Shown here: piece by piece, positions 268 to 21,461 of the stretch
Numbering within the stretch: position 1 is the first letter of the stretch
Layout: each line of letters opens with the position of its first letter
Notes under the pieces: generated by a model
What the model saw: the letters and a program-made list of their open reading frames with translations, nothing else
Database searches by the model: none
Told to the model about the DNA's origin: nothing
Assembly (NCBI GenBank): GCA_011330685.1
Contig: DRPV01000058.1
Location: 1-32,267, forward strand
Reading direction: 5' to 3'
Source: Desulfobacterales bacterium
Lineage (GTDB): Bacteria; Desulfobacterota; Desulfobulbia; Desulfobulbales; VMSU01
Length of the DNA stretch: 32,267 bases
Translations under genes and position numbers: made by a program

Positions 268-798
268 ATGGCGGAAAATGATCTACAGGTAACTATCAAG
301 ACCAATAAGGGAGAGATAAATTTACGTATCTTTGCTGATAAAACACCTTTAACGGCAGCAAATTTTATAAATCTGATTCAACGCAGTTATTATGACGGTC
401 TGGCATTTCATCGGGTAATTGCCGATTTTATGGTGCAGGGCGGCTGTCCGCACGGCACTGGTACCGGAGGGCCTGGTTATAATTTTGAGGATGAGTTTGA
501 TGCCTCTCTGCGTCATTCCAAGGGGGGAATCCTCTCCATGGCGAACGCCGGGCCCGGCACCAATGGCAGCCAGTTCTTCATTACTCATGTTGCCACTCCC
601 TGGCTTGACGATCATCATACCGTTTTTGGTGAGGTGCTGAATGATGATGATTTGGCGGTGGTGAACAGTATTGCCCAGGGTGATACTATTGAAGGAATAA
701 CCATCAGCGGCGATGTTGAGTCCCTGCTGCAGGCCCAGGAAGAGAGGGTAGCTGAATGGAATAAGCAGATTGACAAGGCCTTCCCTGATCTGGATTGA
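268..798 (+). CDS. Cyclophilin-type peptidyl-prolyl cis-trans isomerase
   Basis: Protein [36 protein letters not shown]...[31 protein letters not shown]...[17 protein letters not shown] is typical of cyclophilins. ATG at 268 with AGGAG upstream is preferred over the 157 start in the ORF track. Confidence 0.95.
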
Positions 799-805
799 GC
801 AGCAC

Positions 806-958
806 GTAACCGTTCACCTGCACCCCATCTTCGTCCGTTTTGCCCCCCTCACGTACAAAAGGTACGCTTCGGAGGCCGAAACGAACGAACCTGGGGCACA
901 TCTGAACGGTTACAGTTTACGAGTTGAGGGTAATTTATCGCCTCTGCTGAACGGTTAC
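806..958. mobile_element. MITE-like element, 11-bp terminal inverted repeats GTAACCGTTCA/TGAACGGTTAC, 8-bp target duplication AGCAGCAC
   Basis: GTAACCGTTCA at 806-816, TGAACGGTTAC at 948-958 (internal extra copy at 903-913); AGCAGCAC at 798-805 and again at 959-966. Confidence 0.85.
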
Positions 959-1121: not shown

Positions 1122-1284
1122 GTACTGATAACCACTTGATTTTAAACGAATAAAACCTGGCAGCCCGTTAAAACTACTTTTGCTGCCCCGGCGGCATTAT
1201 TAGAGGGGATGATTAATTGGGGAATGTGTGCCTAACATGTTGTTATTAATGAATAAAGAAACAAAATAAAAAATAAATCATTGT

Positions 1285-1301
1285 TTGGCACGGTGATTGC
1301 T
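1285..1301 (+). promoter_or_regulatory. Sigma-54 (RpoN) -24/-12 promoter
   Basis: TTGGCACGGTGATTGCT matches the consensus TTGGCACG-N4-TTGCT, with GG at 1287-1288 and GC at 1299-1300, exact 12-nt register. Confidence 0.8.
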
Positions 1302-1311
1302 TTAAGTATTA

Positions 1312-1388
1312 GTCAAGAACAAACTCTTAATCTTCTTTCCAAGCCAAAAGACCTGCCTTCTCCCCAAGGCGGGTCTTTTGGTTTCCGG
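1312..1388 (+). ncRNA. Candidate sigma-54-dependent small RNA
   Basis: Predicted +1 about 12 nt after the -12 GC; no ATG in the stretch; ends in hairpin CCAAAAGACCTGCCT-TCTCCCCA-AGGCGGGTCTTTTGG then TTT; next gene (cdaR) is on the opposite strand. Confidence 0.55.
1344..1384. terminator. Strong terminator hairpin, possibly bidirectional (sRNA + strand / cdaR - strand)
   Basis: CCAAAAGACC/GGTCTTTTGG plus GCC/GGC inner stem, C-rich loop. Confidence 0.75.
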
Positions 1389-1472: not shown

Positions 1473-2438
1473 TTATTTGATGGTAACATTAACGGAGGCC
1501 GGGATAACATCTTCAATGATGATCCTTGGTTGAGTGGCGGTAATTTTAACCGCCGCGCTATGCTGGCTGGCTGAAATTTTGCTTACATCCACCCGGGCCG
1601 TGAATAACTGCCGCGGCTTCAGTGTACTCTTGCTCACCAGCATAGGGATGCGAACCTTGAGCTCTACTACCCTGGGCTTAAGCACCGCTTTTTTGCCCTT
1701 GGCCAGGCCGATGACGGTGATGGTTAATTTGTTGATCTTTTTTTCCACCATCTTCTCTTTAATTATAATCCGGGCCGTAATGCTGGGCGAGCCAATGAGA
1801 TTAATTACTTCCGGCGGGATATTCAGATATATCTGTCTGGTGACCTCCTGGTCAAGACCGTTAATGTCGATGGGTTTGGTCGGGAGAATCTTGTGTTTAT
1901 CAATGATATTCTGCGGGCCGGATATATTAATGTGATCCGGGGTCAGAATAATTCTCTTTAATTCATACTCCCTGGGCGGCTTGCCCTTGGTGACGGCCTT
2001 GATGGGCAGATTTTTCTGGATCAACTTGTCAATCAGCAGGATTGTATGAGACGGCTGGATGCGGAGGACTGTAATTCCGCGGGCAAAGGATATTGAGTCC
2101 GGTTTGTTGTCGATGATCATATTGCCGGGCTTGGCATTGGAGAGGTCGATGGAGCGGGAGATATCACTGCGGGCAATCTCCCGGATCAGGCTGCGCGGCC
2201 CGCTCACCGTTACCTCTAAGATATTTTTAAATTGATTGGAGATGATCAGGTCGCGGGGCATGTTGACAATCTCCACCGGAATCTTGACATTCATGTCCAC
2301 CCGATCCTCTCCGGCGACGAAATACCAGAGAAAGACGGCGAAAAACAGGGAAATCAGTTTGATCAGCCAGTCTTTGCGCCAGGATAGTTTTGGCGGCCTG
2401 TAGTTGGTTTTTATTTGTTTATCAGCCAATTTTTCCAT
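1473..2438 (-). CDS. cdaR: YbbR-domain protein, CdaR-like regulator of CdaA
   Basis: N-terminal TM segment (WLIKLISLFFAVFLWYFVAGE) and repeated YbbR-like domains (VPVEIVNMP..., ITVIGLAKGKKAVL...); overlaps the end of cdaA. Confidence 0.85.
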   Translation of the reverse strand: MEKLADKQIKTNYRPPKLSWRKDWLIKLISLFFAVFLWYFVAGEDRVDMNVKIPVEIVNMPRDLIISNQFKNILEVTVSGPRSLIREIARSDISRSIDLSNAKPGNMIIDNKPDSISFARGITVLRIQPSHTILLIDKLIQKNLPIKAVTKGKPPREYELKRIILTPDHINISGPQNIIDKHKILPTKPIDINGLDQEVTRQIYLNIPPEVINLIGSPSITARIIIKEKMVEKKINKLTITVIGLAKGKKAVLKPRVVELKVRIPMLVSKSTLKPRQLFTARVDVSKISASQHSAAVKITATQPRIIIEDVIPASVNVTIK

Positions 2439-3353: not shown

Positions 3354-4532
3354 TTAAGGAGGATTTGAGGTGTTTAATGACCGCAGACGGGCGGTAAAAT
3401 GAAAGGTTGATCCCTGATTGATTTTGCTTTTTACCCATATCCTGCCGTTTATCATGGGGACTAAGCGGGTGCAGATGGCAAGTCCGAGGCCGGCTCCTTC
3501 ATGCCGCCGGGTGAGGTACTCGTCGGCTTGGGAAAAGGGGGCGAAAATTTCTTCCTGCTTGGCGGCTGGTATTCCGCAGCCGCTGTCGCGGACGCTGAAA
3601 CGCAGGATTATGCCGTCCGGGGGCTTTTTCTGCTCAAGCGCGGCTCGGATGCTTATCTCGCCGTGCTCGGTAAATTTTACCGCGTTTTCCAGCAGGGAGT
3701 TGAGTATCTGCTGGATAATACTCGGATCACCCTGCAGGGCGGTTGGAACGTCGTGTTCTACATGAAAGGATAATTTAAGTCCTTTTTCTTCGGCCTTCGG
3801 TGTTATAGCCCTGACGGTCTGCTCAAGGATGGCGTGCGGTTGGAAATTTATATCCTGGCGGTGCCGTCGATCCTCGCTGTGTGAGAAGTCAAGGAGCTGA
3901 TTTATCAGTCCCATGAGGCGGTCGGCGGAGAGCTGGATCAGGTTGAGAAAATTTTGCTGCTTCCTGGAAAGGGTGGTCTCAGTCAGCAGTTCCAGAAAAC
4001 CGAGAATACCGTTCATCGGGGTCAAAAATTCATGGCTGATGGTATTAATAAAGCCGTTTTTAACTTCATTGGCCTGCTGCACGGTATTTTTGGCTGCCAA
4101 CAGCTCAGCGCTGACATCTTTGTGATATTGTAATTCCCGCCGCAGATTGTTTAAAAGCGATTGTTCCCGAAAAATTCGTCTTAATTTGGCAATTAATTCG
4201 TCCTTGGGAAATGGTTTGACGATGAAGTCGCTGGCGCCGGCCTTGATGACGTCAGTGTAGGAGTAGTTATTGCTGTAACCAGTCATGGCTATGACGCTGG
4301 TTGAAGGGGAATGCTCCCGGATATGGCGGATTAACTGCATGCCGTCCGTCCCCGCCATAATCATGTCGGTGATGACCACGGTGAAGGTAAAGCTGTTGAT
4401 GTGATTTATGGCCTCGGTGCCGGATGCCGCTAATTGAAAGTTATGACCGGCAGAGGCCGCGTATCTGCCCACCAGGGCCAGATGATCGCGGTCATCGTCA
4501 ACTATCAGGATTTTACCGCTTAAGTCAGCCAT
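3354..4532 (-). CDS. REC-histidine kinase (N-terminal receiver, HisKA, HATPase_c)
   Basis: ILIVDDDRDHLALV...VVITDMIMAGTDG...KPF; H-box FINTISHEFLTPMNGILGF; G-boxes DSGCGIP, GAGLGLAI. Confidence 0.93.
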   Translation of the reverse strand: MADLSGKILIVDDDRDHLALVGRYAASAGHNFQLAASGTEAINHINSFTFTVVITDMIMAGTDGMQLIRHIREHSPSTSVIAMTGYSNNYSYTDVIKAGASDFIVKPFPKDELIAKLRRIFREQSLLNNLRRELQYHKDVSAELLAAKNTVQQANEVKNGFINTISHEFLTPMNGILGFLELLTETTLSRKQQNFLNLIQLSADRLMGLINQLLDFSHSEDRRHRQDINFQPHAILEQTVRAITPKAEEKGLKLSFHVEHDVPTALQGDPSIIQQILNSLLENAVKFTEHGEISIRAALEQKKPPDGIILRFSVRDSGCGIPAAKQEEIFAPFSQADEYLTRRHEGAGLGLAICTRLVPMINGRIWVKSKINQGSTFHFTARLRSLNTSNPP

Positions 4533-4535
4533 ATT

Positions 4536-6593
4536 TCAGCCTTCGCCGCATAGCTGCTGGATGGCGGCACTTAGTTTGTCGAGTTCCATGGGCTTTAGTA
4601 TTATCTTGCGAATCCCGATTTCTTTGGCGTATTGCATGGTGTCTTGATCTATAATGCCGGTGAACATGATGATTGGAATATGCGCTTTGATTTTAAGCAG
4701 TTCGACGGCCAGGTCAATTCCGGTCATGTTGGGCATGGTTTGATCGGTGAGAATTATGTCAAAGTCATCGGGGCGGGCCTTGAATGTTTCCAGGGCCTCG
4801 ATACTGTCGGTCTTGAAAGTCACCTTGTAACCCGTTTTGTTTAAGGCCCTGGCGGTTATTTCGGCCAATGGGGCCTCGTCATCAACTAACAGGATACGTT
4901 CTTGTCCGCCCATGGCGGGAAGTTTTGGGGCTGCTGGTTCTGCTTCCGCCTGGCAGGGGGGGATATAGATGATGAAGGTGGTGCCCTGGCCCGGTGCGCT
5001 ATTGATCTGAATCGCCCCGTTTAATTTGGTTACGATGCCATGCACGATGGCCAGGCCCATACCGGTGCCTTCGGGCTTGGGCTTGGTGGTAAAAAATGGG
5101 TTGAATATTTTGGGCAGCACCTCCGGCGGAATGCCGCTGCCGGTATCCGAGATGGAAAGCTGGATATAATCGCCGGGGCTGAGTCCGATAATAGCTGCTG
5201 CCTCCGCTTCGCTCAGGGTTGTGTCCCGCAGGCTGATATCAATGGTGCCGCCATGCCGGCGCATGGCGTAATAAGAGTTGGCGCAGAGATTCATCAATAT
5301 TTGATGAATCTGTAAAGGGTCTGCGATGATACTCGTCTGGCAGCCTTGGGCTATGTGGAGTTCTATTTTGATGGCGGCAGGTATTGAGGCCTGCAGAAGT
5401 TTTATGGTCTCTTGAAGCATCAGGTCTAAGCGCAGGGGAGAAAAATGCAGATCCTGACCGCGGCTGAAGGTTAGGATCTGTCTGGTTATTTCCTTGGCCC
5501 GGAGGCCCGCTGAGATGATATGTCCGAGATCAGAACGTATGGGGCTGTCAGGGGGTAATTCCTCCAGGGCCATATTTGCAAAACCCAGGACGGAGGCGGT
5601 GATGTTGTTGAAATCATGGGCTATGCCGCCGGCCAGGGTGCCGATGGCCTCAAGGCGCCAGGACTGCTGTAATTGTCGGTCAAGCTCCATTCGTTCCTCT
5701 TCCGCCCGGCGGCGGCGGCGAATGTCCCGGATTATGCCTACGGCATGGCGATGACCATTAATGTTAACCCCCGAGAGAGATAACTCAACCGGAATTTCCC
5801 GGCCGTCCCGGCAGCGGGCGTCGACCTCAACGGTTCTGGCTAAAATCTCTTGCGGTTCTTTTTTTAAGAAACTCATCAGGGCGGGCCGATAGGCATCGGA
5901 ATAATTGTCGGGCACAATAAGGTCATGGACATTGCGGCCCACGGCTTCCTCTTCTGAATAGCCGAAGAGACGGGTGGCGGCGGGATTCCACAGGGTGACT
6001 CTGGCCCGGTCGTCCATCATGATTATAGCATCAATGGCGGCATTGGTTATGGCCTTGGAATAATGCTGGCTGTTGGTTAACTTTTTGGCGCTGCGCTGGA
6101 GGCGGATGATACCGGCAATGGCTATGGCGGCAATCTGCAGGAGTTCGACGATTTCCGGGTCGTAATGATCTTCGATTCTGGCGTAGAGGGTAAAAACACC
6201 TAATACGGAACCATTCTGGCCCGGAATTGGGATACAATAATGGCCGTAGGGCTGGGAGACCTCGGCGTATTTCTGATAGCGGGGGTCGGAGTTGTCGGCC
6301 AGAATAATCCTTCCTTCGGCAGCGCATTGTCCGCACAGGCAATGGCCCAATGGGATCTGACGACAGAGATTGTTAAACGTGGGAGAGAGGTTGTGGGCGG
6401 CCCGCAGGCGTAAATTATGAGGGGGCTCTTCGTCAACCAGAAAGAGGACACCCCGGTTGATGAGGTTCAGATGAGGCAGGGAGGTCAGGATTTTCAGAAA
6501 ATGCCGCAGGATATCGGTAAAGGGCTCCTGGCTCACGGCCAATCGCATAACTTTACTCAACACAGTTTGGATATCTTTGTTGGAACGTCTCAT
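4536..6593 (-). CDS. GAF-PAS-HisKA-HATPase-REC hybrid histidine kinase
   Basis: PAS region (AAIDAIIMMDDRARVTLWNPAATRLFGYSEEEAVGR), H-box GGIAHDFNNITASVLGFA, GTGMGLAIVHGIV, C-terminal REC (ILLVDDEAPLAEI...DIILTDQTMPNMTG...KP). Confidence 0.93.
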   Translation of the reverse strand: MRRSNKDIQTVLSKVMRLAVSQEPFTDILRHFLKILTSLPHLNLINRGVLFLVDEEPPHNLRLRAAHNLSPTFNNLCRQIPLGHCLCGQCAAEGRIILADNSDPRYQKYAEVSQPYGHYCIPIPGQNGSVLGVFTLYARIEDHYDPEIVELLQIAAIAIAGIIRLQRSAKKLTNSQHYSKAITNAAIDAIIMMDDRARVTLWNPAATRLFGYSEEEAVGRNVHDLIVPDNYSDAYRPALMSFLKKEPQEILARTVEVDARCRDGREIPVELSLSGVNINGHRHAVGIIRDIRRRRRAEEERMELDRQLQQSWRLEAIGTLAGGIAHDFNNITASVLGFANMALEELPPDSPIRSDLGHIISAGLRAKEITRQILTFSRGQDLHFSPLRLDLMLQETIKLLQASIPAAIKIELHIAQGCQTSIIADPLQIHQILMNLCANSYYAMRRHGGTIDISLRDTTLSEAEAAAIIGLSPGDYIQLSISDTGSGIPPEVLPKIFNPFFTTKPKPEGTGMGLAIVHGIVTKLNGAIQINSAPGQGTTFIIYIPPCQAEAEPAAPKLPAMGGQERILLVDDEAPLAEITARALNKTGYKVTFKTDSIEALETFKARPDDFDIILTDQTMPNMTGIDLAVELLKIKAHIPIIMFTGIIDQDTMQYAKEIGIRKIILKPMELDKLSAAIQQLCGEG

Positions 6594-17581: not shown

Positions 17582-17618
17582 GCGTAGACTCCGAGATGGG
17601 GTGCAGCTGAGCAGTTAC
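17578..17618. repeat. Mosaic mini-element GTAAGCGTAGACTCCGAGATGGGGTGCAGCTGAGCAGTTAC
   Basis: About 36/41 identical to reverse complement of 1404-1444; supplies the TAA stop of the MinD-like gene. Confidence 0.75.
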
Positions 17619-21276: not shown

Positions 21277-21461
21277 ATAAATTACCCTCAACTCGTAAAC
21301 TGTAATCGTTCAGGTAAGCGAAGACTCCGGGAAAGCGAAGACTCCGGATGTGCTCCAGGTTCGTTCGTTTTGGCCACCGAGTCTGTACACCCCGTACGTG
21401 AGGTGGACAGGTAAGCGTAGACTCCGAAACGGACGAAAATGGGGTGCAGCTGAACGGTTAC
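21277..21461. mobile_element. Composite MITE-like element, inverted relative to the 806-958 element
   Basis: 29-bp identity ATAAATTACCCTCAACTCGTAAACTGTAA with reverse complement of 910-938; GTAATCGTTCA 21302-21312; TGAACGGTTAC 21451-21461; three internal copies of (GT/GA)AAGCG(A/T)AGACTCCG. Confidence 0.8.

Follow-up and report, generated by a model that had tools for sequence, protein, structure and literature searches.

The window, by which we mean the whole 32,267-nt stretch of DNA that was analysed, is part of a 2.9-Mb draft genome. It contains a small RNA (sRNA) unit located between two convergent genes, encoding a cyclophilin PPIase (271-798, plus strand; the upstream neighbour) and cdaR (YbbR; 1473-2438, minus strand), the latter followed by cdaA. 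The convergence of sRNA and cdaR agrees with the initial annotation, as does the full match, with exact spacing, to the sigma-54 consensus. The -24/-12 promoter, TTGGCACGGTGATTGCT (1285-1301, plus strand), is kept in genomes G001, G002 and G003, and its segment TGGCACGGTGATTGCT at 1286-1301 fits TGGCAC-N5-TTGCW with zero mismatches, being the only such site in the 32-kb window; the 10 other sites with up to two mismatches are no more than are found in shuffled sequences. By an arithmetic estimate, approximately 0.1 exact matches would be expected by chance per 32 kb, so the element by itself is not compelling. It stands above chance because promoter, core, hairpin and upstream palindromes are conserved in relatives. 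Transcription is predicted to start at approximately 1311-1312, placed from the C of the -12 GC at 1300, and we infer from these signals that the unit is transcribed as an sRNA of approximately 73 nt (~1312-1384, plus strand), with its start set by the -12 element and its end by the hairpin. Neither ATG nor GTG occurs in 1311-1384, as expected of the start-codon-free unit originally described.

The strong hairpin annotated at 1344-1381 proved to be the core of a larger terminator hairpin of 19 base pairs (1341-1384, plus strand), predicted by folding and covariation, with a C-rich loop (CUCCCC) at 1360-1365. Its minimum free energy is -30.9 kcal/mol (z -6.4), which none of 200 shuffled sequences equalled. 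The T-rich tail attributed to it, TCTTTTGGTTT (1377-1384), is weak to mediocre in the window and good in most relatives. Across 88 aligned members, 96.5% of the stem cells are paired, double changes occur in 12 of the 13 pairs, and the covariation score is 0.663, compared with 0.285 in shuffles and at most 0.18 in slid versions, although the alignment was fitted to a covariance model and thus leans toward the structure. A weak 5' mini-hairpin (AAGA...UCUU; 1315-1328, plus strand) is stronger in some relatives and absent in others, and about half of the members fold it. We propose as the pairing seed a CU-rich, mostly single-stranded core, ACUCUUAAUCUUCUUUCC (1323-1340, plus strand; family consensus AACUCUUAUCUCCUUUCUCC), which has a mean unpaired probability of 0.83. 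This core is the family-wide invariant, and nothing else outside the stem is as well conserved, its TTT and flanking C/T being near-invariant; it reads UCUCCUUUCUCC in the family and has drifted to UCUUCUUUCC in the genus of the window. The C-rich loop, which had initially been favoured as a seed, is common in the family, yet it has been lost in family f12 and in a second order (that of G343).

Homologues of the unit are widespread. In the same-genus genome G002, the -24/-12 element, transcript and hairpin are approximately 90% identical to those of the window, with much of the flank far less alike, and the stem differs by changes from A-U to G-C and from G-U to C-G. With BLAST, additional copies turned up in other families of the same order, which is most probably Desulfobulbales. 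R1, a covariance model built from 11 sequences of the transcript only, without the promoter, had matches at E ≤ 1e-4 in 103 of 263 genomes, a set that is identical for the order and its class, and a second model (R2) found a member in all five genomes of the second order, each with a -24/-12 element. The members that we inspected individually come from approximately 90 genomes, 14 families and two orders, and the 44 named contigs with both promoter and core belong to Desulfobulbaceae, Desulfurivibrio, Desulfobia, unspecified deltaproteobacterial or proteobacterial MAGs and one Desulfobacterales. A -24/-12 element (TGGYNY-N6-TGC) is located no more than 45 nt upstream in 72 of the 81 members outside the R1 training set, where the background rate in the remainder of these loci would predict 0.5%; related genomes are not independent in this count, and the promoter is nonetheless present in nearly every sampled family. 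The nine exceptions in the full set comprise four chance matches, one member cut by a contig end and four with TGGCAY-N6-TGT.

The four model matches rejected as chance (L170, L179, L185 and L188) do not have a proper promoter or core; one of these, L179, is the inspected example of the few weak matches in f11, a well-sampled family of the order in which the sRNA is almost absent. When R1 was searched across the phylum, family f24 gave the only real-looking match outside the order, and L203-L205, L207 and L209, with neither core nor promoter, were dismissed. The gene is mostly single-copy per genome; G006 carries a second, diverged copy (L162:1404-1477) with its own promoter, TGGTACACCTTTTGC. 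No Rfam 15 family matched the window at the gathering threshold, and four loci searched at E ≤ 1 gave below-gathering matches only (Thr_leader, 26 bits versus 55, and unrelated ones). Judged from sequence, the locus is a real and previously undescribed sRNA gene, and family, of sulfur-cycling bacteria. The label "orphan" holds only in the sense that the promoter has no mRNA; the gene itself belongs to a set of no fewer than 90 homologues.

A second conserved signal, the palindrome GTACAA-N4-TTGTAC, emerged unexpectedly from upstream k-mers. With up to two mismatches it is found upstream of 77 of 90 promoters (124 sites, where 0.5 would be expected), a count that is partly circular since the motif was derived from the very regions in which it was counted; its palindromy, its preferred spacing and its spread over families are outside this circularity. 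The sites cluster near -103, -180 and -280 from the TGG of the -24 element. The window contains two candidate upstream activator sites (UAS) on the plus strand, both conserved in G001-G003: UAS1, GTACAAAAAATTATAC (1004-1019; one mismatch, -282 from the TGG), and UAS2, GTATTATTTTTTGTAC (1110-1125; two mismatches, -176). In the alignment of G000-G003, both UAS, the promoter and the transcript stand out as conserved islands, and G001, in which the gene has a different location, is no exception. Another upstream sequence, TAACATGTTGTTA, resembled a UAS in G000 and G002 but was rejected, since it is missing from G001 and degraded in G003. Known UAS motifs (NifA TGT-N10-ACA and the NtrC type) are not enriched upstream of the promoters.

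In the second order, the palindrome reads GTAAAA-N4-TTTTAC, and an NtrC-type response regulator with a GSFTGA/GAFTGA motif is encoded directly upstream of the sRNA in four of five loci. The remaining locus, L294 (G343), does not follow such a regulator and keeps both promoter and UAS. Outside the second order, the window included, the sRNA is not directly downstream of an NtrC-like regulator gene. The palindrome and this adjacent regulator strengthen the earlier suggestion of control by an enhancer-binding protein, and by its position the NtrC-type regulator of the second order is the best candidate for the activator, which would be an NtrC-family protein acting on the palindromes. Two hybrid sensor kinases are encoded after cdaA in the window (3354-6593, minus strand; REC-HisKA-HATPase and GAF-PAS-HATPase-REC), neither of which is the activator because both are without an AAA+ domain.

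We consider it likely that 1311/1312 to ~1384 encodes a free-standing, Hfq-independent, trans-acting sRNA of approximately 73 nt that is driven by an NtrC-family enhancer-binding protein and sigma-54, and that represses mRNAs by pairing through its core at their ribosome-binding sites. This reading builds on what comparison of genomes has established: a family with a promoter, UAS, a covarying terminator, a near-invariant core, changing gene contexts and no match to Hfq (PF17209) in any of ten host genomes, with control genomes positive. The gene would be silent until sigma-54 RNA polymerase at 1285-1301 is activated by the enhancer-binding protein, bound to GTACAA-N4-TTGTAC at 1004-1019 and 1110-1125, and the transcript would end at its own hairpin. 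The sRNA would then act in trans, probably without Hfq, its CU-rich core (aided in the lineage of the window by the C-rich loop) pairing with purine-rich ribosome-binding sites. Such anti-Shine-Dalgarno action would repress translation, and silencing of mRNAs in this way is the probable mode of action. Candidate targets in sister families are mRNAs of envelope proteins (Porin_5 and OmpA-type).

Exact complements of the core before an ATG, searched in 25 genomes, recurred at eight Porin_5, five OmpA-family and three DUF6765 sites. In family f5, the Porin_5 ribosome-binding sites carry a 12-nt perfect complement (-22 to -24 kcal/mol), and this pairing is stronger than that of all 592 background starts; four porin paralogues of family f3, which were not selected by pattern, are in the top 1-2% for core complementarity. 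Complements of CUCCUUUCU, part of the family core, occur before ATG approximately 10 times as often as in the reversed control, an excess that any Shine-Dalgarno sequence would show; since the core is similar to a generic anti-Shine-Dalgarno, it would be expected to match strong ribosome-binding sites in any case. A search with the core of the window's genus gave no more complementary start sites than its reversed control. Porin_5 went undetected in the family to which the window belongs, and a universal Porin_5 target was therefore rejected; on sequence grounds, Porin_5 and OmpA-family genes are target candidates in sister lineages only. Porin_5 and OmpA-family loci with unusual complementarity to the core in sister families include L266-L281, L212, L252, L255, L260 and L264.

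The near-invariance of the core, set beside candidate mRNA targets that are not universal, would also suit a sigma-54-driven sRNA that titrates a protein, or acts as another kind of decoy, with no mRNA pairing. We regard this as unlikely: the transcript shows no GGA loop motifs of the CsrA type, and in Listeria LhrC, single-stranded CU-rich cores and C-rich loops pair at ribosome-binding sites (PMC4132741). Alternatively, the RNA might act as a mimic of the 16S rRNA 3' tail, lowering the translation of many mRNAs with strong Shine-Dalgarno sequences at once rather than controlling selected targets. The family core contains CUCCUUUCU, which is identical to the usual 16S 3' end, and the tenfold excess before ATG noted above would be accounted for, but the core of the window's genus, as drifted, is a poorer 16S mimic, and we give this reading only a small chance. 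A search for the 16S 3' tail pattern gave no matches in seven genomes, in which the rRNA is probably unassembled or left out of the sequence.

The preferred reading, a free-standing gene, follows from neighbours that differ between lineages, which argues against a cdaR terminator. Three unrelated contexts recur: PPIase, sRNA and convergent cdaR in the window; aconitase, sRNA, a DUF362-like protein and an SDR, all in one direction, in a second context; and MCP and glucokinase genes divergent from the sRNA, with tRNA-dihydrouridine synthase downstream, in a third (gene names in the latter two were read off the protein sequences). That the hairpin is merely a bidirectional cdaR terminator beside a coincidental -24/-12 match is very improbable; it lies ~90 nt past the cdaR stop, with a weak terminator-like match on the minus strand at 1370-1355, but in G001 and all families beyond the close relatives of the window the unit occurs in other gene contexts. 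There, -24/-12 element, transcript and hairpin travel together far from cdaR, the opposite of the outcome named beforehand as refuting (a hairpin conserved without the -24/-12 element), and the UAS travel with them. Retention of promoter and UAS in differing contexts refutes the cdaR terminator as a complete explanation, and a dual role of the hairpin as cdaR terminator in the window's genus is possible. That the unit is the leader or small ORF of an unannotated gene is scarcely credible, since the TTG-initiated open frame that overlaps it (1281-1574) would begin upstream of +1, 1311-1384 is devoid of ATG and GTG, an ATG occurs in just 11 of 88 members and so is not a conserved feature, and the stem covariation is at the RNA level. 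The sRNA region is also flanked by a dispersed 25-bp repeat, GTAACCGTTCACCTGCACCCCATCT, with two exact and two near copies in the window (806-830, 1404-1428, 17594-17618 and 21437-21461) and more on other contigs of the genome (L003 and L004).

Desulfobulbales include sulfate reducers and sulfur disproportionators in which regulatory RNA is almost unstudied, and we found no description of an sRNA from this order in the literature searched. Because promoter, spaced activator site, near-invariant core and covarying terminator are defined across many lineages, the signal and the targets are directly testable, and with no detectable Hfq in ten hosts the family is a useful case for chaperone-free pairing sRNAs. 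A more speculative idea, with the odds against it, is that a mostly single-copy, Hfq-free sRNA with a near-invariant, 16S-tail-like core could be the fixed output of one NtrC-type signalling system in at least two orders of the phylum, acting as a brake on the envelope (porin/OmpA) or on translation in general.

The family is unnamed, with no Rfam match, and is of a known kind, that of sRNAs driven by sigma-54 and enhancer-binding proteins such as Qrr, Pxr and Dv_sRNA2. Vibrio Qrr1-5 (LuxO) are likewise sigma-54 sRNAs under an NtrC-family regulator that repress translation by pairing. The Qrr sRNAs are Hfq-dependent, have four stem-loops and occur in several copies, unlike the mostly single-copy family described here, in whose ten examined hosts Hfq was not found. 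Pxr of Myxococcus has a sigma-54 promoter, an upstream enhancer region and a predicted 3' terminator stem-loop, and its gene is directly downstream of that of the NtrC-like response regulator PxrR (PMC5568312, PMC5684412). In the sulfate reducer Desulfovibrio vulgaris, Dv_sRNA2 and other ncRNAs controlled by enhancer-binding proteins (DVU0679, DVU0653, DVU1419 and DVU2359) use sigma-54, and two of them are downstream of a regulator gene (PMC3333781, PMC4641369). The adjoining upstream regulator in four of five second-order loci reproduces the layout of pxrR-pxr (PMC5684412) and DVU0679-Dv_sRNA2 (PMC3333781). Compared by description only, Pxr is longer (~108 nt), has three stem-loops (with SL1 and SL2 conserved), occurs in long and short forms and is reported in myxobacteria only, whereas the present RNAs (~75 nt) have one strong stem, a CU-rich core and a weak, non-universal 5' stem. 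The D. vulgaris ncRNAs, also compared by description only, belong to a different order and have a narrower reported distribution, and the main text on them does not give the UAS palindrome of the present family. Listeria LhrC1-5 pair with a ribosome-binding site through CU-rich motifs, which lie both in a single-stranded region and in the loop of the terminator, and Hfq is dispensable for LhrC action on lapB (PMC4132741). LhrC is LisR-controlled, from a Firmicute, with five copies and three motifs, and we claim no homology; an LhrC-like pair of CU-rich stretch and C-rich loop is present in the window and in many relatives, although f12 and the second order do not have the loop site.
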